From positions 1 through 22,131 of the IMG/VR virus record IMGVR_UViG_3300005338_000036: 22,131 nt of DNA, one strand, 5' to 3'. This document shows positions 10,324-22,131 of the stretch, one piece after another. The notes below the pieces were generated by a model that worked only from the letters and a program-made list of their open reading frames with translations, was not told the DNA's origin and did not search any database. The DNA comes from a virus. Numbering within the stretch: the stretch's first letter is position 1; the number at the start of each line of letters is the position of its first letter. Both the position numbers and the translations under genes were made by a program.

Positions 10324-11171
10324 CCGCTTGGAAGGGTATCGCCTTCTTCAATGGTTCCAGTTCGTCCGTTTGGACCAACTACGCGCACTCGTCGCTTAGT
10401 CGATTTTCCAATCTTTCGTGCGCCAGAAGACAGGTCAAGCAACTTGCTGTTCACATCCTGAAGGGCTTCCATACGTGACTGAATGAATTGCTTCTGTTCG
10501 TCCTCTTTCATGCCAAGACGGTCCACGTTCTCCAACTCAGCATTGATAACGCTCATTCGAGCGCGTTCGACTTGCACCTGTTGCGGTGCCGTCAGCGTGA
10601 TTCCTTCGGCCTTCTGGAAGTGTCCCGTGTTCGGACCTGTCGCAATTACGGAACCAAGCACTTCTTTTGTGATCGGATCATTAACCGTGAAAACTTCACC
10701 AAGTTTATGCTGTGTTCCGGTTGCTGAAAATGGCGGGAAACTGAGGCTCTTGCCGTGAACAACAGCTTTGCCAACGCCTGGACCAAAATCCTGCACTGTG
10801 AACGCTGTCGGTGTTTCCTCGAAATCCTGTTTGCGTTTCTCCAAAGCAAGTCGCCCTGTATCGTAACCAAGCAATCGCGATTCTTGTTCGGCCTGGTGCT
10901 TCTGTAGCTGCTGCAACTGCGCGGCGTCCTGCGCGATCTTCTGCACGTTGAGCAGGCGTGTCTCCTCGAACTCGCGTTGGCGCTCTGCCGCGCGTTCAGC
11001 ACGTTCTTGCGCTTCTGCCTGTCTCTGGGCCTGCGCTTGGGCCAACGCCTGCGCTCGGATGCTCTGGTCGGTCAGCTCTAAGCCGACACGAGCGCCAGCT
11101 TGGAGCGCCTGTGAGAACAGGTTCGGCGTGATGCCTGCGATCCACGGAGGTAAAGAATCAATTGCGGCCAT
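10302..11171 (-). CDS. Putative virion protein with long coiled coil, 289 aa
   Basis: The ATG at 11169-11171 overlaps the last 14 bases of the HNH gene; an earlier in-frame GTG lies at 11199-11201. It starts MAAIDSLPPWIAGITPNLFS. Residues about 35-115 are an uninterrupted Ala/Gln/Glu/Arg coiled coil (ALAQAQAQRQAEAQERAERA). The middle (120-190) looks beta-rich (TAFTVQDFGPGVGKAVVHGK), followed by another helical stretch and a C-terminal KRRVRVVGPNGRTGTIEEGD small beta unit. In podovirus-type gene trains, an Ala/Gln-rich helical protein just before the giant internal protein is often a second ejection protein. This is by position only, with no family match. Confidence 0.6.
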   Translation of the reverse strand: MAAIDSLPPWIAGITPNLFSQALQAGARVGLELTDQSIRAQALAQAQAQRQAEAQERAERAAERQREFEETRLLNVQKIAQDAAQLQQLQKHQAEQESRLLGYDTGRLALEKRKQDFEETPTAFTVQDFGPGVGKAVVHGKSLSFPPFSATGTQHKLGEVFTVNDPITKEVLGSVIATGPNTGHFQKAEGITLTAPQQVQVERARMSVINAELENVDRLGMKEDEQKQFIQSRMEALQDVNSKLLDLSSGARKIGKSTKRRVRVVGPNGRTGTIEEGDTLPSGWQLQTQ

Positions 11172-11697
11172 GCGTTCGTTTATAGGCGCGCTGCCTAGCA
11201 CAATTACACTGTTTGCACTGTCCAGTAAGGCCGTCCCAATTCGCTCTGGTTTTATGAAAATCCTGCAACGGTTTTACCGACTTGCAGTTCGAGCATCGCT
11301 TAATGGAAAAGCTACCCACATCGTCTAAGTGCCGCTTTCGAGCGTGTAGCAGCTTATGATATTTTCCATTTTCACAGATCACCAAGTTGTCGTTGCGGTT
11401 ATTGTGCTTGTTGCCATCCACATGATGCACCTCAGCCTTGGCTGGCAGGTAATGGCCCAAGGCGCGTTCAGCTACTACAATATGAATTCCAACGTGATTG
11501 CGCTGTGCGCGTGGATTTCCCACATCACGAGTAACAAGATAGCCTTTAGCAGATTCCCCTTTGAACCCGGCACGATTTTCGCCCACGTTATGAGACGAGT
11601 AACAAGCGTGAGAACAAAATCGCTTTGGCTTACCGTTGTCAGTTCGTTGCCGTCGAAAAAAAGTCATCCCACAATGCTGACATTTCAATTCGATCAT
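11158..11697 (-). CDS. HNH homing endonuclease flanked by zinc-binding modules, 179 aa
   Basis: The core is EVHHVDGNKHNNRNDNLVIC followed by KYHKLLHARK, giving the His-His/Asn/His pattern of HNH nucleases. The N-terminal CQHCGMTF with FCSHAC (about 6-33) and the C-terminal CSNCKS with CKQCN (about 136-167) form probable zinc ribbons. The start ATG overlaps the stop of the upstream virion gene (ATGA; an earlier GTG at 11704-11706 would lie inside that gene). Its stop overlaps the next gene by 14 bases, so it is spliced into the virion operon without breaking either neighbour. It cuts DNA and is a free-standing homing nuclease, most likely non-essential to the phage. Confidence 0.88.
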   Translation of the reverse strand: MIELKCQHCGMTFFRRQRTDNGKPKRFCSHACYSSHNVGENRAGFKGESAKGYLVTRDVGNPRAQRNHVGIHIVVAERALGHYLPAKAEVHHVDGNKHNNRNDNLVICENGKYHKLLHARKRHLDDVGSFSIKRCSNCKSVKPLQDFHKTRANWDGLTGQCKQCNCARQRAYKRTHGRN

Positions 11698-12683
11698 AAA
11701 TCCCACTCAGGAAATTCTGGATAGACCGGCTGTTGCTGCGCCTCATTATCCCAATTAAACCAATCATTCCAATAATTTGTACTATTTGTATTTCCGGGAC
11801 CGATGCCGAACATTCCACCGCCACCACCGATGAATGGGTCCGATAGCCAATCAGTGAACCCACCGCCTCCGGGAGTCGCAACAGAACCGCCTTCAGGTCC
11901 GGGGAAACCGCCGCGTGTGCTGGACCACACATCGCGTGGCGCACCGCCTTGCGTGCCCCAATTGATGCCGGTGCCCGCATAATATGGCGTGACAGGCACG
12001 TTGCCCCATACGCTCTCTCCTGAGAACGGTGCCCACGGGCCAGCGTTGAAGTTGCCCGGCGCATTGAGATTGCGCGGAGCACCGCCACCACCGCCACCGC
12101 CAAAACTCACGCCACCGCCGCCAGTGCGCTGCACCTTGGCCAAGTACGCGTTGAACAATCGCTCTGCTTCGCGTGCCGCCGCCTGCGGGTCAGGCGCAGC
12201 CGCGAGTGTCGCGTTGCGATTAGCGACTTCAAGCTGCGTCTCAGGCGATACCGTCAGCGTCTTCGCCACCGTCGGCAACGCGGCAAGAAGGTCAGCCGCG
12301 CCCTTGGATTTCTGCGCCTCGGCTGTTAGCCCGAGCTGGCGCAGCCCCTTGGCACCCACGAACGGGCTGAGCGGGACGCCTGCACCGATGCCGAACTGCG
12401 CGGCGGTGTTCTGGAGCATTGCAATGGTTTCCGGGTCGAGTTCGCCCGCGAGTTCGCTGCCGATGTTCGACGATAACGCGCCGAGGTTTTGCTGAAGCAT
12501 CGGGAATGCGCCGGCCACGTCCTGATAAATCGATGGCAAGCCGATAGGGCCTGGAATTAAGCCCCAAGGCCCCTGCCCGGTGCGCGGTGCTGACGTGTTC
12601 GGACCAAACGGCGGCGTGCCTCCGACAAATGGTCCCGGCGTGAAATCAAATGTTCCGGTGCGGCTTGAGGATGATCGTGGCAT
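11694..12683 (-). CDS. Gly-rich putative virion protein, 329 aa
   Basis: The ATG at 12681-12683 begins two bases after the upstream TAG; the longer TTG-started frame (12698) would overlap that gene. The N-terminal third is Pro/Gly-rich (FVGGTPPFGPNTSAP), then comes a helical part (QNLGALSSNIGSELAGELDP, AREAERLFNAYLAKVQ), then poly-Gly linkers (VSFGGGGGGGAPRN, GGGGGMFGIG) and an aromatic/acidic tail (NYWNDWFNWDNEAQQQ). No family is recognised. Low-complexity glycine linkers and a flexible tail suit a virion or internal protein. It lies between the 330-aa protein and the HNH insertion. Confidence 0.65.
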   Translation of the reverse strand: MPRSSSSRTGTFDFTPGPFVGGTPPFGPNTSAPRTGQGPWGLIPGPIGLPSIYQDVAGAFPMLQQNLGALSSNIGSELAGELDPETIAMLQNTAAQFGIGAGVPLSPFVGAKGLRQLGLTAEAQKSKGAADLLAALPTVAKTLTVSPETQLEVANRNATLAAAPDPQAAAREAERLFNAYLAKVQRTGGGGVSFGGGGGGGAPRNLNAPGNFNAGPWAPFSGESVWGNVPVTPYYAGTGINWGTQGGAPRDVWSSTRGGFPGPEGGSVATPGGGGFTDWLSDPFIGGGGGMFGIGPGNTNSTNYWNDWFNWDNEAQQQPVYPEFPEWDL

Positions 12684-14282: not shown

Positions 14283-17240
14283 TCAGAACAACTCAACATC
14301 AATCGTGGTCGCAATCGCCGTGAACGAGAGCGGCGTGACATTGAGCGTGATGACACCGTTGGTGACGAGGCGGAAGTGCAATCCGGCATTTGTGTTGCCA
14401 TCAGTGACAATGGCGAAGATGCCGCGCAACATCTCGGCGCTCGTATCCAAATCGGTCGAGCGCGTGAGCACCCACGGCGTCCCGCCAGAACCAAGCGACG
14501 TGACGGTATTGCCTGTAATAAAAACGCGACCGTCTTTCCGCGCCACCCATGTCGAGTTTTCTGTCTTGGGGCACCACAGCACGCCCGTATAAAGATCGCG
14601 GTGCTTGGACGGAACCGTCCTGCTCACCTTGTTCAAATAGAGTGTGTGTTGGCCGGCCACCGTACCTCCCAAAGTGCTTGGGATGCCCGCTAAAACACAT
14701 GCGAACTGAATTGGATGCAATCTCGCTATGTCTTTTTGGCCCAAACTTCGCTGTCCTGATTTAGAAATGTGCCCGTCAGCTGACAACGCCGTGTCAATAA
14801 ACAAATGCAATTGGGCTTTCGTTAAAGCCCGCAAGAAGTCAATGCGCACAATTCGGTTCGGCGCTAAGAAGGTCAGCCGTGATCCAGCAGCCGCGTTAAG
14901 GTCAAACTCTATTAGACCTTTTCGCGTAGATGTTTCACGCCATTTCGGGACATCGGTCTTCCACCCGCCTTTGGCACGCGGAGGTGACGCATCGCCAAAC
15001 AAACCTCGCAGGCAACTCCTAATGCGACCCACCAAATCAGGATTTACGCGAGAGGATTGCGAAATGCGCACGCAATTAGAGTGAGTACCAGAATTGTTCT
15101 TCCTGACATGCCCCTCCGTAAAGAACCATGCCACCAGCTCTACAAGGTCATCAGTGTACTTCGCCTTGAAGGGCAATTCTCCACACGGCGCGGCTTTCAA
15201 CAATGCTGTGTTTTTCGTCAATTGAGACGACAGTGTAATGCGTTGTTTGCCGCTGTTTATATTTTCCGTTGGCCACCGATGATTCAGTGATGAGATGGAA
15301 AAGTGCCCTTTGTTACGCATCACCAGGACGGGTTCATTGACAACATTAAACTCGTGAATGGACTGCACGGGCTGCCATTCTGTTACCCCTTTCGCTTGGT
15401 TGTAAGTAAGCACCAATTCACCCGTCGCCAAATCGCGTCTATGCTTCCACCCTTCGTAAGTGAGAATCTCGGTGTTGCCATCCAAGCAGTAGCTGCCATT
15501 GTTCTGTCCAAGAGCCTCGTTCTTGACCAGCACACGGTCGGCAACCGAAATCGCGATGCCGTCAATGGCGGGCAGAGCACCGTTGACGTTAGCCGTGAGC
15601 ACGTTCAGGACGCGCGTGTTTGCGGGCAGCGCAGCGGTTGTAGCAACGCGCCACGCGGTTTTCTTGCCGAACATCGTCCAGCCCACGACATCGGATGAGA
15701 AAACGAAAGTGCCCTGCGGTGCATATCCAGCACCGCCGAGGCCCACCCACGACACGACATTGCCTTGGATGGGATGCTGATAGGTAAAGGCAAGAATCCA
15801 CGCGCATCCAGTCGGCGTGTCTTGGCCAGCGGTATCGTGGTAAATCTTGGTGGCAGCAGGTGCGTCCATCAACGTCGAGTTGAGTTGCGGCACACCACCG
15901 CTGATGTCGATGAGGTAAGCGTAATTGACGAAATTTGGCTGCGGATCAAAAACCGTGAATGTGCCGTTCCACACCGGAGCACCACCGCCTGCGGTGCAAG
16001 CATTGAATGGCGTCAGGCTTGGCAGGAGCGACGCCAAGTTGACGATACGAAGCTGTAGCGTCTGATAGTTGATAGCGGGCTTTTTGACGCGGGTAAGTCG
16101 GAACGTGGGCAAAGATGAACCCACCGCATTCAGCGTCCAACCGCTATCGTGAACATCCACGTCGATGTTTCCGAGAGCGTGCTGAAAATGAAGTGTCTCG
16201 CGCCCTTGAGGGCCGGCGAAAAGTGCAGCGTCCGGGCAACACACAAGAGTTGTGGTGTCGAAGTTTGCCTCGGCATCGGCGGCATTGGATTCCGCGCAGA
16301 AAGAATATGGCAACTTGTTTCGGAACGGCGTGCCGAAAGAGTTGTAAACATATTGCGCCTCACCAGCCACAGGTCCAACGGTAGTGGGCGGATTAACAAA
16401 CCAATTCGGAGGCAACCCCGTGGATGTTTGCACAGAACCGCCAACATACCCGATCTTGTACTCGCCAAGCGGAACGGATGCCCATTGGCCGGTGTCAGTC
16501 ACTTCCATCGTGTTGATGGCCACGTCAGGCGAGATGACGGTGCTGTCGGTGACGCCAAGGTCGCACGGCACATCGCTGGAAACGGTGAGTCGGAACACGC
16601 GCTTGCAGATCAGCCGCGTCCGCGTGGCGGGATTGATTGCGCCCGTGGCTTGCGCGACGAACGTGAACAGGCCCGACACCATTGGGATACCGGAAATGAC
16701 GCCATCAGCGGATAGGCTCAAGCCTCCCGGCAACGCGCCGCCAACAAGCGTCCACACGACGGGTGCGAGTGCGCCGGACTGTTCCAGCATCGCCAAGTAG
16801 TCGGTGCCGGAGAAGGCTTCGGGCAACGTGCCCGGCGTCGAGATTGTGCAGTTCTGATTCTGGCGGGCGTTCTGCGCATTGTAAGCCTGCGCTTCACAGA
16901 GCGCCAAGTGTTCGGCAGCGGCGTCGGCGATTTCTTGCGCTGCGGTGTTAAATTGCGCTTGCGTGAAGTTCGCGGGAAGATACCTCGTTAAAATTACACC
17001 ATCACAACAAGTAAATCGCAATGGATTTCCGCCTGTCGGCGGTGTGTAAGGAATCGCGCCATCGGGAATGATTATTGGGTGTGGATAGGCCCCAGGTGAA
17101 CACGAGAATCCTTGTGGACAGTTTAAGATGAAACCCGTCTGCGCCGACAAAAATGTCAAACCCTGAGTGTAGAATGGAGGCGCTGGAACTGGACAGCATT
17201 CCACTGGCGGTTCACAAATCACTGACACTGGCAAGCTCAC
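14283..17240 (-). CDS. Large Ig-like/fibre virion protein interrupted by an intein, 985 aa precursor
   Basis: The start is GTG at 17238-17240, with TCCTCCT on the plus strand at 17247-17253 giving AGGAGG 7 bases upstream and overlapping the previous stop (GTGA). The TTG 24 bases further up is less likely. The N-terminus is Cys/Pro-rich (VICEPPVECCPVPAPPF). Near residues 130-205 lies a putative Ig (He_PIG-like) unit ending LPGGLSLSADGVISGIP with SGLFTFVAQATG. The C-terminal extein carries ADRVLVKNEALGQNNGSY joined after splicing to TVTSLGSGG and STDLDTSAEMLRG, a repeat unit known from phage tail fibres (RVLVK-x-NG-Y-W-R-x-TD-D). The intein splits that unit. Removal leaves a 658-aa protein, probably a tail fibre or neck component. 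Confidence 0.8.
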   Translation of the reverse strand: MSLPVSVICEPPVECCPVPAPPFYTQGLTFLSAQTGFILNCPQGFSCSPGAYPHPIIIPDGAIPYTPPTGGNPLRFTCCDGVILTRYLPANFTQAQFNTAAQEIADAAAEHLALCEAQAYNAQNARQNQNCTISTPGTLPEAFSGTDYLAMLEQSGALAPVVWTLVGGALPGGLSLSADGVISGIPMVSGLFTFVAQATGAINPATRTRLICKRVFRLTVSSDVPCDLGVTDSTVISPDVAINTMEVTDTGQWASVPLGEYKIGYVGGSVQTSTGLPPNWFVNPPTTVGPVAGEAQYVYNSFGTPFRNKLPYSFCAESNAADAEANFDTTTLVCCPDAALFAGPQGRETLHFQHALGNIDVDVHDSGWTLNAVGSSLPTFRLTRVKKPAINYQTLQLRIVNLASLLPSLTPFNACTAGGGAPVWNGTFTVFDPQPNFVNYAYLIDISGGVPQLNSTLMDAPAATKIYHDTAGQDTPTGCAWILAFTYQHPIQGNVVSWVGLGGAGYAPQGTFVFSSDVVGWTMFGKKTAWRVATTAALPANTRVLNVLTANVNGALPAIDGIAISVADRVLVKNEALGQNNGSYCLDGNTEILTYEGWKHRRDLATGELVLTYNQAKGVTEWQPVQSIHEFNVVNEPVLVMRNKGHFSISSLNHRWPTENINSGKQRITLSSQLTKNTALLKAAPCGELPFKAKYTDDLVELVAWFFTEGHVRKNNSGTHSNCVRISQSSRVNPDLVGRIRSCLRGLFGDASPPRAKGGWKTDVPKWRETSTRKGLIEFDLNAAAGSRLTFLAPNRIVRIDFLRALTKAQLHLFIDTALSADGHISKSGQRSLGQKDIARLHPIQFACVLAGIPSTLGGTVAGQHTLYLNKVSRTVPSKHRDLYTGVLWCPKTENSTWVARKDGRVFITGNTVTSLGSGGTPWVLTRSTDLDTSAEMLRGIFAIVTDGNTNAGLHFRLVTNGVITLNVTPLSFTAIATTIDVELF
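14508..15488 (-). mobile_element. LAGLIDADG-type intein (327 aa) in the fibre protein
   Basis: Intein Cys1 is the TGC at 15486-15488 (CLDGNTEILTYEGW, block A), block B reads GHFSISSLNHRW, and the end is RVFITGN with Asn at 14508-14510 followed by a +1 Thr. The penultimate residue is Gly rather than the usual His, a tolerated variant. Two LAGLIDADG-like motifs are visible: LVELVAWFFTEGHV and LFIDTALSADGHI, both keeping an acidic residue, so the nuclease is probably active. The frame is continuous with both exteins. It excises itself from the protein, and the nuclease spreads the coding DNA to intein-less alleles. Confidence 0.9.
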
Positions 17241-19246
17241 GACACATCCTCCTGCAAAGTGCAAAGTGGCTTCGCGAATTTCGGTTCCGGTACAATACTG
17301 GACATAAACCTCGAACCGAAATATTTCATATGCCCCTGAATCACAAACCGGAATTGAATGCGTTTTCCATCCGTCAGCGGTCGGTCGTTGATTTCATCGC
17401 AACTACCTTCAGGTTTTCCGAAGCCTATGGGGTCTCGAATCTGCGGCGGCACATTGTTGATTCTGCTGCATCCGGTGAGCGGATCAATTCCACATGATGC
17501 GAGTGCGGCACAGAGCGAGAACCGCGTCCATAAATTCCAACACGGATATTCGTCTGCTCGCCAATACACTGTCACGTCCACACGCCCTTTCACGTCGTAA
17601 AAGTAGCCTTCGCCATCTTCGAGCCGGTTCAATCCTAACCGATTTTGGTCAGCGTTACGGAAATCCAACGCAGCAGTCTCAATCGACCAAATGATCGGCG
17701 TCTGGTCATTGTCCTCGATGACATCGGTTTCGCTATTAAGAATTTCCCAAAACTCAATCTCCTGCGCGGCGTTCAGGACGAACGCGAAGCACCGCTCCAC
17801 GTCGTTGAATCGGCCTTTGACGAATTGCAGAACGCTGATGCCAGTCCCCACGCTCTCCCACACTGTCGGCGCTTTGCCTCGAAGCGAGCTGATCAGATCA
17901 AAGTTGAGTGCGACCCAGCCGCGATGCAAGACACCGTGTTGGGTGAACACAGGAGATACAGTCATCAACAAACGATTGTCGAACACAACTGCGCTGGAAT
18001 ATTGGAGCAAAGCTGTATCGTCCTTTTTGAGCACATCGGAGACTTCGCGGCTCATGGGCACGTTGCCCCACGTTGCGAAATCTCGCCGACCAAGGATGAG
18101 CGACCAAATGCCGACCGTGCCGCGATACCACAAATCACCTTTAGCAACGACAGTGCTATATTGTGACAAACCTCCGCTCTCGACCTGCGATACGGTCACG
18201 ATTGGATTTGTGACAGTCGCCCAGTCAGCGGTCGTGGTCGGCGCATTGCACGAGAAAACGATTTCAGGAGTGAGAATTTGCACCGGCCCTTGGCCAAGTG
18301 AAGCGTCGAGCGTCGGCACGCCGCGAATGGCGGTGATTTCGCCAACACTGCCGGGAACCCGGAACCGCTTGTTGCTCGCCAGATAAAGATTTTCGCTGAT
18401 ATGCAGGACGGCATCTCGAAATTCCTCAGCAAGCGTACCTGAAGCACCTCCAACCGCGTCGCCAGCAAGGAATGTGACGCCATCTGGTCCGGCCTGCCAC
18501 ACACGTCCAAGCCAATACGTGCCCATGCGTGCGATTGGCAATTCAGGATTCGCACCGACGAGCACCGAACGCCGGGACGTGGCACCGTCAAAAAAGATCG
18601 GCACCGATTGGCCGTCGTTAATAATCATCCATTTCTCAGCTTGCCAGAGCCACGCTTGCGTGCGCGATGCCGGGTTCACGTCCCAGAACGTCAGCACTGC
18701 ACCAGCGGCGACGAGCGGGCCGGGATCGTCGATGTTTTCGACAGTCAGGACAGTTGGCGAGTCCACGGAGACAATAATGTAGTTGTGATTGCCTACGCGA
18801 ATCTCGAAGTTTGCGCCGAGGTTTACGGTCGAGAGCACCGTGATCGTCACCGTCGCGCCGATGGCTGGCACCGCGAATCCCACGTCAACGATGGTGTTGT
18901 GTGCGATGGTGATTTCGCGCACCGAAGCTGTCCTCGCTCCTGGCGTGAACTGGAACAGCCGACCGCCGATGGATGCGATGATTGAACCGATGCCGGAATC
19001 ACTTCGATAGTACGCGCTGCCTTGGAATCGACCGTCCTGTTGACGCGAAGCCAACACACCGTCGCCGCCATAATCCAGTGTGAGCCGGCGATTCGGTGCG
19101 CGAGGCGAAGCATATCCTCCTCGTACGCTCGTGTTGGTGAGGTAAGCCGCCTGAGTGCGCTGGAGCTGCGATGGGAGAACGCCGCTGTTCATCCCGTCGA
19201 TCAGCGGGCCGATGCTATCGTAGAGGTAGTGGGGCTTATCAGCCAT
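17237..19246 (-). CDS. Large beta-rich putative virion protein, 669 aa
   Basis: The ATG start (19244-19246) lies within the last 8 bases of the upstream gene. The N-terminus YLYDSIGPLIDGMNSGVLPS and NTSVRGGYASPRAPNRRL follow a layout I associate with tail-nozzle or stabilisation proteins (a Gly-rich start, an Asn, then an Arg-rich loop). The rest alternates short beta strands with aromatic/Asp turns (TQAWLWQAEKWMIINDGQSV, YWLGRVWQAGPDGVTF), suggesting a beta-propeller. The C-terminal ~120 residues are Cys-richer (PCWNLWTRFSLCAALASC). No family is firmly recognised; the nozzle idea is inference from size and position. Confidence 0.65.
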   Translation of the reverse strand: MADKPHYLYDSIGPLIDGMNSGVLPSQLQRTQAAYLTNTSVRGGYASPRAPNRRLTLDYGGDGVLASRQQDGRFQGSAYYRSDSGIGSIIASIGGRLFQFTPGARTASVREITIAHNTIVDVGFAVPAIGATVTITVLSTVNLGANFEIRVGNHNYIIVSVDSPTVLTVENIDDPGPLVAAGAVLTFWDVNPASRTQAWLWQAEKWMIINDGQSVPIFFDGATSRRSVLVGANPELPIARMGTYWLGRVWQAGPDGVTFLAGDAVGGASGTLAEEFRDAVLHISENLYLASNKRFRVPGSVGEITAIRGVPTLDASLGQGPVQILTPEIVFSCNAPTTTADWATVTNPIVTVSQVESGGLSQYSTVVAKGDLWYRGTVGIWSLILGRRDFATWGNVPMSREVSDVLKKDDTALLQYSSAVVFDNRLLMTVSPVFTQHGVLHRGWVALNFDLISSLRGKAPTVWESVGTGISVLQFVKGRFNDVERCFAFVLNAAQEIEFWEILNSETDVIEDNDQTPIIWSIETAALDFRNADQNRLGLNRLEDGEGYFYDVKGRVDVTVYWRADEYPCWNLWTRFSLCAALASCGIDPLTGCSRINNVPPQIRDPIGFGKPEGSCDEINDRPLTDGKRIQFRFVIQGHMKYFGSRFMSSIVPEPKFAKPLCTLQEDVS

Positions 19247-20377: not shown

Positions 20378-22131
20378 ATGGCTTCCGCTGCATTTGAGAA
20401 ATACGACCTCGACTGGCCCGCTGGCACGACGGCGCTTGAAATCGAGACGTACATGATCCGGCAGGGAAAGAATCTGTTCACGCATTTCCGCGCCTTGCAC
20501 TCGTTGCTTTGGGAAGACGAGCACAACAAGTGGAGCGACCTCGCGTTGAAAGAATTCACGGACTGCATGGAGTTCCGAAAGCGCGGCATGGTCGGGCTGC
20601 TCGGCCCCGGCAGCAGCGGCAAGACGTATTATGCGAGCAAGTTCGTGTTGAGCCACTATTACGTTTATCCACAGGAAACAACAATCTTACTAACCACCAC
20701 GACGGTTCAGAAATTGGACTTGGGAATCTTCGGAGAGGTGAAAAAATTGCATAAGCAGGCGAAAGAACGATGGGAAGAATTACCGGGGGTCACACTCGAC
20801 TATAAACGTTGCATTATCACGGATCGAGCCGAGGAAGGAGAGCCAAGAGATTTCAGGAACGGAATTATTGGCATAGCCTGTATGCGCGGGGAACAATGGG
20901 TCGGCATCGGTTGCTTTCCCGGTGAACAGCTTGTTGATACCCCAACCGGGCAAATCCCCATTGAAACGATAAAGGAAGGTGATTCAGTAATTTCCGCCTT
21001 CGGGTCGGCGAGGGTAAAGGCAACCTCAACGCGAACGGCTGACACGCTGATACGAGTCACGCTCGAAGATAGCAGAAAATTCGATTGCACGCCTGAGCAT
21101 CCAATTTTAACTTCAACGGGATGGGTAAAAGCTATTGACCTAAACAGCCAAATCCGAGTAATATCGCCACATGAGACCATGCGAATCATGCGGGAAGCTG
21201 ATCGCCAGGAAAGGGCGACTCGCGTTTTGCAGTCAGGCGTGTTTGGACAAGCAGTGGACACGGATTTGTCCTATGTGCAAAACCGAGTTCGTTTTGAAAG
21301 ATCACAGGAGCGAACATTGCTCGAAATCCTGTGCGATGAAATCGAGGATGTCAGACCCGGATTATGCAAAGCACATTGCGAAACTTACGCATACGGAGGA
21401 GGCTCGCCTAAAAAGTCAGCTAACCCATCTGGCCAACTTGGAGAATCGGAAGCGCATGGCGATATGGTCGAAATCGAGAGCAGGCGGCATACAGTCAGCT
21501 TTGGTAAAGAAAAGCTGGGAAGCACGCCGCAAGAACGGCGAGAAGGCTTTCAAGGGACACGGCAACGGTTTTCCGCCGAGCCAAGCCGAGCGGATTATGA
21601 TGGCTTTATTTCCAGAAGCGCAATTCGAGCCGATAATCCTGAGCCATCGAGGATTGAAAAGCACGGCACTCAAAACCGGCTATCAACATTACGTCAAACC
21701 GGACTTCGGCTGGTTGGACATCAAGTTGGCGGTGGAAGTGGACGGAGAAACGCATTCTCGACCTCGCCAGAAAGTGCGGGACGCTCGCAAGGAAAAGATA
21801 CTCTCGGAACAAGGGTGGTCAGTGTTAAGATTCTCGAACGAACAAGTGATAAACGATACGTCGAAAGTGAAGGCGGCTATCGAGTCCACAATCTTGAGGT
21901 TGAAGGCCACCCGTCCTACTCCATAAACGGCACCGTCGCTCATAATTCTTTCGTCGGAATCAAGAACAAATGGGTGTTCCTCGTCGCCGACGAATGCAGC
22001 CTCATGGACATCTCGTATCTTCGCGCCACGTCGAACCTGGACAAGAACGAGCGGTTTTTCTTCATCCCGATTGCAAATCCTGTGAACGGTGAGCATTCGC
22101 CAATGGGCCAGTCATGCGAGCCTGAGCTTGG
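20378..22131 (+). CDS. terL: Large terminase subunit (TerL) with an intein, partial at right edge
   Basis: The ATG at 20378-20380 is the first start after a TAG at 20366. The Walker A motif is LLGPGSSGKTYYAS (residues about 74-87), and the Walker B motif is VFLVADE, at D538/E539 of the precursor (193/194 after splicing), followed by CSLMDISYLRATSNLDKN, typical of phage packaging ATPases. The intein lies between them (residues 179-523) and splits MRGEQWVGIG from SFVGIKNKW. The frame is open to the end of the window, so the nuclease domain and C-terminus are beyond it. The enzyme translocates DNA into the capsid. It is divergent from the virion genes and shows no clear Shine-Dalgarno. Confidence 0.88.
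   Translation, partial: MASAAFEKYDLDWPAGTTALEIETYMIRQGKNLFTHFRALHSLLWEDEHNKWSDLALKEFTDCMEFRKRGMVGLLGPGSSGKTYYASKFVLSHYYVYPQETTILLTTTTVQKLDLGIFGEVKKLHKQAKERWEELPGVTLDYKRCIITDRAEEGEPRDFRNGIIGIACMRGEQWVGIGCFPGEQLVDTPTGQIPIETIKEGDSVISAFGSARVKATSTRTADTLIRVTLEDSRKFDCTPEHPILTSTGWVKAIDLNSQIRVISPHETMRIMREADRQERATRVLQSGVFGQAVDTDLSYVQNRVRFERSQERTLLEILCDEIEDVRPGLCKAHCETYAYGGGSPKKSANPSGQLGESEAHGDMVEIESRRHTVSFGKEKLGSTPQERREGFQGTRQRFSAEPSRADYDGFISRSAIRADNPEPSRIEKHGTQNRLSTLRQTGLRLVGHQVGGGSGRRNAFSTSPESAGRSQGKDTLGTRVVSVKILERTSDKRYVESEGGYRVHNLEVEGHPSYSINGTVAHNSFVGIKNKWVFLVADECSLMDISYLRATSNLDKNERFFFIPIANPVNGEHSPMGQSCEPEL
21135..21164 (+). promoter_or_regulatory. Candidate promoter for the nested endonuclease
   Basis: TTGACC (21135-21140), 18-base spacer, TAATAT (21159-21164): 5/6 and 4/6 consensus matches. 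A start site about 7 bases downstream would fall at or next to the ATG at 21171, giving a nearly leaderless transcript. It lies inside intein coding sequence, and no Shine-Dalgarno precedes the ATG. Confidence 0.3.
21171..21926 (+). CDS. EDxHD/Vsr-like homing endonuclease with zinc ribbons, nested in the TerL intein in the +1 frame, 251 aa
   Basis: Two Cys4 modules at the N-terminus (CESCGK with FCSQAC; CPMCKTEF with HCSKSC, residues about 4-55) are followed by a basic helical segment (KHIAKLTHTEEARLKSQ, SALVKKSWEARRKNGEKAF). The nuclease core is SQAERIM, then YVKPDFGWLDIKLAVEVDGE, then TH, VRDARKEKILSEQGWSVLRF, with SNEQV: the E, D, ExDG, H and D...R pattern of Vsr/DUF559-type EDxHD nucleases, a known homing family. 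The frame is closed upstream by TAA at 21159-21161, so the ATG is the only canonical start. The stop TAA (21924-21926) lies inside the intein C-terminal splicing block. Expression would need internal initiation or a +1 shift between 21162 and 21171. Confidence 0.85.
   Translation: MRPCESCGKLIARKGRLAFCSQACLDKQWTRICPMCKTEFVLKDHRSEHCSKSCAMKSRMSDPDYAKHIAKLTHTEEARLKSQLTHLANLENRKRMAIWSKSRAGGIQSALVKKSWEARRKNGEKAFKGHGNGFPPSQAERIMMALFPEAQFEPIILSHRGLKSTALKTGYQHYVKPDFGWLDIKLAVEVDGETHSRPRQKVRDARKEKILSEQGWSVLRFSNEQVINDTSKVKAAIESTILRLKATRPTP

Follow-up and report, generated by a model that had tools for sequence, protein, structure and literature searches.

A phage intein that appears to carry its homing endonuclease as a separate gene in the +1 frame

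We report an intein in a 22,131-nucleotide viral contig (IMG/VR record IMGVR_UViG_3300005338_000036, positions 1 to 22,131; hereafter the window) that contains, entirely within its own coding sequence and in the +1 frame, an open reading frame (ORF) for a nuclease of the DUF559 family. Our reading, with a probability of about 0.88, is that a terminase-like phage gene has been invaded by a mobile intein, and that the homing endonuclease of this intein is encoded by a separate and complete +1 gene between blocks B and G. The elements of this reading that we observe are the two open frames, their conservation, their mutual codon constraint, exact intein-free alleles and confident models of both products. 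An initial annotation of the window had proposed that positions 21800-21926 (127 bases) code twice, for the C-terminus of the nuclease in one frame and for the C-terminal splicing region of the intein in the other. Dual coding of these two regions holds in 109/109 distinct elements, but the extent was underestimated, as the overlap spans the whole 756-base nuclease gene, which ends inside block F.

We propose that translation of the long frame would yield a host protein carrying a HINT splicing domain split by a disordered linker of ~135 residues, from which the intein would excise itself and restore the host protein. Internal initiation on the same mRNA, at a start codon shortly after block B, would produce a free nuclease combining a zinc ribbon with an EDxHD/Vsr-like (DUF559) domain. 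This nuclease would cut intein-free alleles, and their repair would copy in the whole element. The last ~40 codons would be used by both proteins in a fixed register, and appear to make working parts of each.

The intein corresponds to residues 179-523 of the frame starting at 20378, with Cys1 at 20912, a block B TxxH motif, and a C-terminal HN followed by Ser (Table 1; we take these motifs to be blocks B, F and G). Across 41 aligned inteins, C1, T60, H63 and N345 are invariant and H344 is at least 90% conserved. The intein frame matches Pfam Intein_splicing (4e-6), PT-HINT and NCBIfam intein_Nterm, below the curated cut-offs, with all splicing motifs present. Six aligned contigs of the homologous gene (L007, L008, L011, L012, L013 and L015) are intein-free and continuous across the insertion site; they join at the same codon as the insertion in the window, which makes the insertion precise. 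The +1 position is Pro in 6/6 of these empty alleles and Ser in the window, suggesting that homing may bring in a splicing-competent residue. A similar Pro to Thr/Ser difference is reported in the ShiLan domain paper (PMC11855218). Related nested inteins (L003-L006; near 4505, compared with 20912 in the window) occupy a second insertion site in this host gene, ~10 codons upstream.

The nuclease is assigned to DUF559 by Pfam (E=4e-13, residues 173-239), and a profile search of the PDB returned 3hrl (2e-10) and 3r3p (1e-3). Among 43 aligned nucleases, the N-terminal cysteines C33, C36, C50 and C54 are at least 90% conserved, D178, E189, G192, H195 and D204 are invariant, and D191 is at least 90% conserved. 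The protein thus has the conserved acidic and His residues and the Vsr-like fold (3r3p, 3hrl, 1vsr) of an EDxHD/Vsr-like enzyme; D178, E189, D191, H195 and D204 would be the residues to which the letters of EDxHD refer. From 21804, the nuclease frame reads SEQGWSVLRFSNEQVINDTSKVKAAIESTILRLKATRPTP and then the stop at 21924-21926; from 21803, the intein frame reads LGTRVVSVKILERTSDKRYVESEGGYRVHNLEVEGHPSYS and continues to HN.

We modeled the products of both frames with AlphaFold2, using alignments of 43 nucleases and 41 inteins drawn from the 109 elements. The nuclease model has a mean predicted local distance difference test (pLDDT) score of 86, rising to 96-98 over residues 211-240, which include the shared strand at 217-222. 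In the intein model, residues 1-90 and 301-346 reach a pLDDT of 93-98 and residues 150-284 fall below 50. The HINT fold is recovered with both halves in this high range, and it matches gp41-1, MchDnaB and other inteins (Foldseek, 6qaz at E=3e-6; 24 matches at E<=0.001). The best fold match of the nuclease is I-Bth0305I (3r3p; E=1.7e-3, template modeling score 0.69 on the target), followed by 3hrl, with Vsr (1vsr) sixth. The same bases form a strand in each model, nuclease residues 217-222 and intein residues 300-307, so that they encode a strand of each fold.

Viral contigs were scanned with profiles of the nuclease (best 80 of 256) and of the intein (best 80 of 151); together with earlier loci, this gave 178 loci. 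Of these, 152 have the nuclease together with intein N and C parts and collapse to 109 distinct elements at 97% identity, a set that mixes the two scans, of which the intein scan favors open intein frames and the nuclease scan does not. Every full element has its nuclease at +1 to the splicing blocks, never in frame with them, and has the intein N and C parts in one ORF. A further 15 loci gave partial hits, seven being nested with a weak or cut-off N-part and eight lacking a nuclease of this type. The viral scan with the nuclease alone is blind to the intein; its 80 retained loci carry an intein C-part in the right frame in 80/80 cases, with both intein parts above threshold in 73 and the N-part weak or cut off in seven (L017, L062, L072, L076-L078 and L096, five of which were re-examined). 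Profiles were needed to reach these relatives, since a scan with the nuclease as a single protein found only one contig, a 60.8-kb viral sequence carrying an identical copy of the element (100% over the 5754 bases in common with the window).

The same layout occurs in cultured phages, including Vibrio phages 1.194.O, 1.088.O and CP-T1 and Corynebacterium phage phi673, where tblastn matches of intein and nuclease fall on the same bases, one frame apart. The nuclease matches 43 phage records, in 40 of which the only annotation at that place is the host gene, named as a helicase, P-loop NTPase, coil-containing or hypothetical protein. The remaining three are two records of Cronobacter phage GAP32, matched through the zinc-ribbon part only and in its own gene, and one unannotated record, with 11 stops in the intein-phase frame. 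All eight of the 40 records that we examined (8/8) show one coding sequence over the region, an unannotated nested nuclease and frames as in the window. Nine further host ORFs were scanned for domains: six combine an N-terminal-type helicase domain (SNF2 or ResIII; helicase N) with Helicase_C, one has Helicase_C alone, and two have intein matches only. Nested elements are also present in bacterial assemblies labeled Pseudomonadota, Planctomycetota, Verrucomicrobiota and others, labels that are only indicative because many of these assemblies are metagenome bins.

We assessed the openness of the intein frame by permuting synonymous codons within each nuclease, keeping protein and codon usage. 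The intein frame inside the nuclease ORF has 0 stops against 992 expected across the 109 elements, and 109/109 are open where chance predicts 0.08 of 109. For the window's own element, the intein frame was open in 0/2000 permutations. The remaining forward frame has 7-59 stops per element. Together with the periodicity of substitutions, these results led us to reject a spurious ORF.

Substitutions were analyzed by counts in 11 close pairs, hand-picked from 136 pairs below 97% identity with no sequence reused; eight come from one subfamily (L114-L151), so the pairs are not fully independent. The nuclease start was placed at the first ATG, which is doubtful in some (e.g., L121/L145), so the border between intein-only and linker parts is rough there. 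Before the nuclease, changes at intein positions 1/2/3 number 92/55/236 of 1075 codons (0.086/0.051/0.220 per site). In the linker overlap they number 482/182/165 of 1882 codons (0.256/0.097/0.088), intein position 1 being the third position of nuclease codons. Over the shared end the counts are 45/29/57 of 386 codons (0.117/0.075/0.148), and in the intein-only C end after the nuclease they are 0/0/8 of 54 codons (0/0/0.148). Nuclease-silent positions thus change at 0.117 in the shared end versus 0.256 in the linker (Fisher p=5e-10), and intein-silent positions at 0.148 in the shared end versus 0.220 in the intein-only part (Fisher p=0.002). This pattern indicates constraint on the intein frame at its two ends and on the nuclease frame within the linker, with the shared end under constraint in both frames. 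Depressed silent change in both frames is what the initial annotation had expected from a dual-coding stretch; its wording of strong constraint on every codon position goes too far, given the changes counted at all three positions of the shared end.

In 109/109 elements, the GWxVLRF strand of the nuclease sits over the VxSVEVL strand of the intein, and the intein residue under the nuclease Trp codon is Val in 95 and Leu in 14. Codon usage in this nuclease motif departs from that in the rest of these ORFs: for Leu, 82 codons are TTN and one is CTN (572:788 elsewhere), the Gly before Trp is GGG in 94/108 (539/1518 elsewhere), Ser is TCN rather than AGY at 67:0 (1018:390 elsewhere), and Arg is AGR in 67/106 (608/1810 elsewhere). 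In each case the preferred codon supplies the hydrophobic or charged residue of the intein strand; codon choice follows the intein frame.

Free-standing relatives provide a control. A scan of bacterial genomes in which the nuclease was the only query gave 50 loci. Of these, 18 are nested and one is partial, and none of the 19 has a stop in the intein phase; the other 31 are free-standing DUF559 genes with 1-14 such stops apiece. The two classes do not mix. In the free-standing genes codon choice is reversed, with CTN for Leu in 30/31 (TTN:CTN 1:30) and CGN for Arg in 31/31. A tree of 60 nested and 31 free-standing nucleases over 87 columns needs two changes between the classes, with one origin still possible; it includes a long free-standing branch, L220, that is unreliable. 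Two plasmid genes of Kitasatospora and Streptomyces (L229 2920-3798 and L230 2521-3765) are also free-standing, with an intein-phase frame interrupted by stops, and align over nearly the whole nested nuclease; judging from this alignment, they may represent an outside relative of the nested lineage.

Might only one frame matter over the shared end, the nuclease C-terminus simply following the intein, or the nuclease being a relic? The tail STILRLK of the nuclease is the +1 reading of block F, and the recurrent form STI(S/L)(K/R)LK is likewise the +1 reading of VYN(L/I)EVE, so this tail is probably an echo of block F. Moreover, the nuclease extends into block F in 103/109 elements and ends before it in 6/109 (L049, L063, L064, L070, L074 and L086). 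The upstream strand behaves differently: GWxVLRF-like motifs also occur in the 31 free-standing genes, which have no intein, and the motif therefore appears to be conserved for its own sake. In the linker it is the nuclease frame that is constrained, and the putative catalytic residues show little or no variation across 43 sequences; this periodicity and this conservation argue for a current nuclease rather than a relic. We consider a one-frame explanation quite improbable. The part conserved on both accounts is then the strand GWxVLRFSN / VxSVEVL. The initial annotation, which had regarded both frames as conserved family sequence, holds for this strand and probably not for the nuclease tail over block F. 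It had also taken nucleases stopping before block F as evidence against dual coding; the six found stop 3-6 nucleotides (nt) short and still overlap the strand upstream of block F.

We next consider how the nuclease would be translated. Instead of using its own start, it could be made as a fusion by programmed +1 ribosomal frameshifting from the N-terminal half of the intein, as its frame is always +1 and, in many elements, is open well upstream of the likely start. However, 87/109 elements have a start codon 240-275 nt after Cys1 (104/109 have one at 145-320 nt), with an ATG at exactly 259 nt in 24; the terminase group has Met1 directly before the zinc-ribbon cysteines; and ribosome-binding words are enriched ~4-fold. 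The position of the start codon and these words favor internal initiation, and we regard frameshifting as unlikely on this evidence, which includes no search for slippery sites. The words themselves are suggestive only; in some subgroups the GAGGT forms part of conserved intein codons and could be coincidental. In the L114-L147 group, a TTG follows GAGGT or GGAGGT at the same place, 151 nt from Cys1; from its position, this TTG could be an alternative nuclease start overlapping block B.

Several observations weigh against a mobile intein with a separately translated nuclease in a terminase-like gene. A Shine-Dalgarno-like word of at least 5 bases precedes the first ATG in only 17/107 elements, compared with ~4% of 795 control ATGs, and in the window itself no ribosome-binding word precedes the nuclease start. 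The fold matches of the nuclease model are modest, the best having E=1.7e-3. The family call of the host gene, made from sequence, is weak: Pfam Terminase_6N is reached at E=0.17, with no family match above threshold, the uninterrupted host homologue gave no PHROG or Pfam match, and no PDB relative was found. 'Terminase' is therefore a tentative label. One element of the 109 (L171, 2578-3006) encodes a shortened nuclease without the catalytic part, keeping the GW-like strand and tail with both frames open, and may illustrate nuclease decay under continued intein constraint. On the other side, intein-N and nuclease distances are correlated (r=0.53, null maximum 0.12, n=106), which supports intein and nuclease traveling together.

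Two frames over one stretch can look like an assembly or sequencing frameshift, and self-splicing RNA introns commonly carry genes of this kind. Here both frames are fully open over the 756-base overlap, the HINT motifs and fold are present, and the layout recurs in the identical second contig and in cultured phages, leaving either explanation barely credible; the view of the initial annotation that an assembly error was unlikely is borne out. We also looked for group I and group II introns, and the window has no Rfam match at the gathering threshold.

Work by Dassa from 2009 is said to have described fractured genes with split inteins and EDxHD endonucleases. Such loci resemble ours in bringing together intein parts and a free-standing nuclease of the same superfamily; unlike theirs, which are split, the gene here is unsplit and nuclease and intein overlap. 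A fractured gene in the window would have its host gene in two parts, each ending in one half of a split intein and separated by a free-standing endonuclease, with the products joined by protein trans-splicing. The nuclease superfamily is the one described for fractured genes, as PMC12350094 has it, but the intein frame is unbroken in 109/109 elements, and we hold this arrangement to be very improbable. A host gene broken into two ORFs, as a fractured gene or split intein would show, was found in 0/109. PMC12350094 also describes an EDxHD/Vsr-like outgroup in phage group II introns and cites the fractured-genes paper for the family.

The element also differs from other known systems. Free-standing DUF559/Vsr-like nucleases (3hrl, the 31 bacterial genes among L193-L228, and L229 and L230) share its core domain, whereas their intein-phase frame is broken by stops and the 31 bacterial genes make the opposite codon choice. 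The known setting of I-Bth0305I is a group I intron rather than a gene that overlaps a protein-splicing element. This EDxHD homing endonuclease (2014 review, PMC3943268) is the best fold match and has a similar catalytic core. In the review, intein endonucleases are described as translated in fusion with the intein. In-frame LAGLIDADG and HNH inteins resemble the present element in having a HINT domain, mobility in a conserved host gene and a nuclease between blocks B and F; unlike those fusions, the nuclease here is a separate gene in another frame, whose end overlaps the C-terminal splicing block. Canonical LAGLIDADG blocks are reported for TerL inteins in a mycobacteriophage intein survey (PMC5050341). 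The ShiLan domain (PMC11855218) has a comparable layout: an out-of-frame HNH endonuclease hidden in a phage methylase insertion that is open in the host frame. That insertion has no splicing motifs, is thought to stay in the protein and has its HNH in the third frame, whereas the window has a recognizable intein, with splicing blocks and a HINT fold, and an EDxHD/Vsr-like DUF559 nuclease in +1; the out-of-frame layout alone is in common. In the open-license literature, which leaves preprints and most subscription papers outside, we found no description of a recognizable intein whose endonuclease gene lies in another frame; 10.1101/2025.01.02.630785, titled on non-canonical actinobacteriophage intein architecture, may hold related cases.

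We also identified a second type of nested gene. The intein scan returned inteins without a DUF559 nuclease, and L139, L143, L164, L165 and L169 each carry in the +2 frame an HNH endonuclease that has zinc-ribbon cysteines (HNH_3 at E=1e-15 in L143). A scan with four of these genes (best 80 of 204), classified together with the four seed loci, gave 84 HNH loci: 53 in +2 with the intein C-part in the same ORF, two in +1, two in frame, five in +2 for which the intein ORF showed no C-part, and 22 lacking an intein N-part. Once the seeds are set aside, the 51 out-of-frame HNH loci represent 39 distinct elements, of which 37 have the HNH in +2 and two in +1. These have 0 stops versus 62 expected, with 10 expected to be open, a descriptive comparison, as membership required an open frame. 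Most of the nested HNH genes stop close to where the C-part begins and overlap it little. The occurrence of HNH in +2 beside EDxHD/Vsr in +1 indicates that out-of-frame intein endonucleases probably arose more than once. We think it likely that phage inteins include an unrecognized general class with an overlapping out-of-frame homing endonuclease gene. This class would have multiple origins (an EDxHD/Vsr type in +1 and an HNH type found mostly in +2) and would have spread among phage genes of the helicase and terminase-like kinds and into bacterial assemblies, with the EDxHD lineage acquiring a fixed, co-adapted register that encodes a core beta-strand of two unrelated folds.

Such elements would break the usual rule of the intein endonuclease as a fusion, with splicing protein and nuclease encoded separately in one element, so that dosage, timing and decay can uncouple while the genes stay inseparable. 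Because the homing gene shares its last codons with the splicing site, losing the end of the nuclease would also threaten splicing. Nested genes would explain the long, meaningless-looking linkers of conserved length in phage inteins, and they reveal unannotated nucleases in cultured phages. If the class is real, many inteins in the databases may have such genes concealed in their linkers, because annotation keeps the long frame only. With more than 100 homologues, free-standing controls and intein-free alleles, these loci offer a clean natural system for studying long same-strand overlapping genes.

Table 1. Coordinates of features in the window and, in the last four rows, of nested HNH genes at other loci
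Feature	Position	Strand	Basis or remark
Long frame including host gene and intein	from 20378, open to window end (last 1.8 kb)	+	ORF
N-extein, terminase-large-subunit-like P-loop ATPase, Walker-type GPGSSGKT	20378..20911	+	family call weak
Intein, 345 codons, Cys1 to C-terminal Asn	20912..21946	+	profile matches, HINT model, empty alleles
Intein block B, CTPEHP	21086..21103	+	T60 and H63 invariant in 41 aligned inteins
Nested nuclease ORF, 251 residues, +1 frame, entirely within intein	21171..21926	+	DUF559, fold and profile matches
CxxC / CSxxC zinc-ribbon-like N-terminal segment, putative DNA binding	21180..21350	+	conserved cysteines; function inferred
Nuclease D178, E189, D191, H195, D204, putative catalytic	21702..21782	+	conservation
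Dual-coded strand, nuclease GWSVLRFSN over intein VVSVKIL	21813..21839	+	register in 109/109
Intein block F	21884-21922	+	splicing motif in intein frame
Block F (VHNLEVEGHPSYS) dual-coded with nuclease tail STILRLKATRPTP	21884..21923	+	block F reached in 103/109
Nuclease stop TAA within intein C-terminal region	21924..21926	+	sequence
Intein block G, GTVAHN	21929..21946	+	H344 and N345 invariant in 8 inteins
HN, intein C-terminus	21941-21946	+	then Ser +1
Ser at +1	21947-21949	+	first C-extein codon
C-extein, cut off by window end	21947..22131	+	tblastn to homologous genes, 88-100% identity
Nested HNH gene, L139	590-1231		+2 frame of intein
Nested HNH gene, L143	2183-2815		+2 frame of intein
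Nested HNH gene, L165	4267-4902		+2 frame of intein
Nested HNH gene, L169	2067-2699		+2 frame of intein

A helicase-type host protein (L033, 2038-5673) matches LAGLIDADG/Hom_end_hint from residue ~55 onward and has a nested-frame intein at around residue 493, and thus apparently carries two inteins of different kinds. The window has a second intein on the minus strand (14283-17264), in a tail-type protein (CLDGNTEIL ... VFITGN); by eye it contains an in-frame LAGLIDADG-type domain and looks like a conventional counterpart to the nested one, although Pfam gave no LAGLIDADG-type family match there. Two further homing-type genes on the minus strand of the window match Pfam NUMOD3 (310-1065) and HNH_3 (11158-11706), pointing to several selfish nucleases in this phage.

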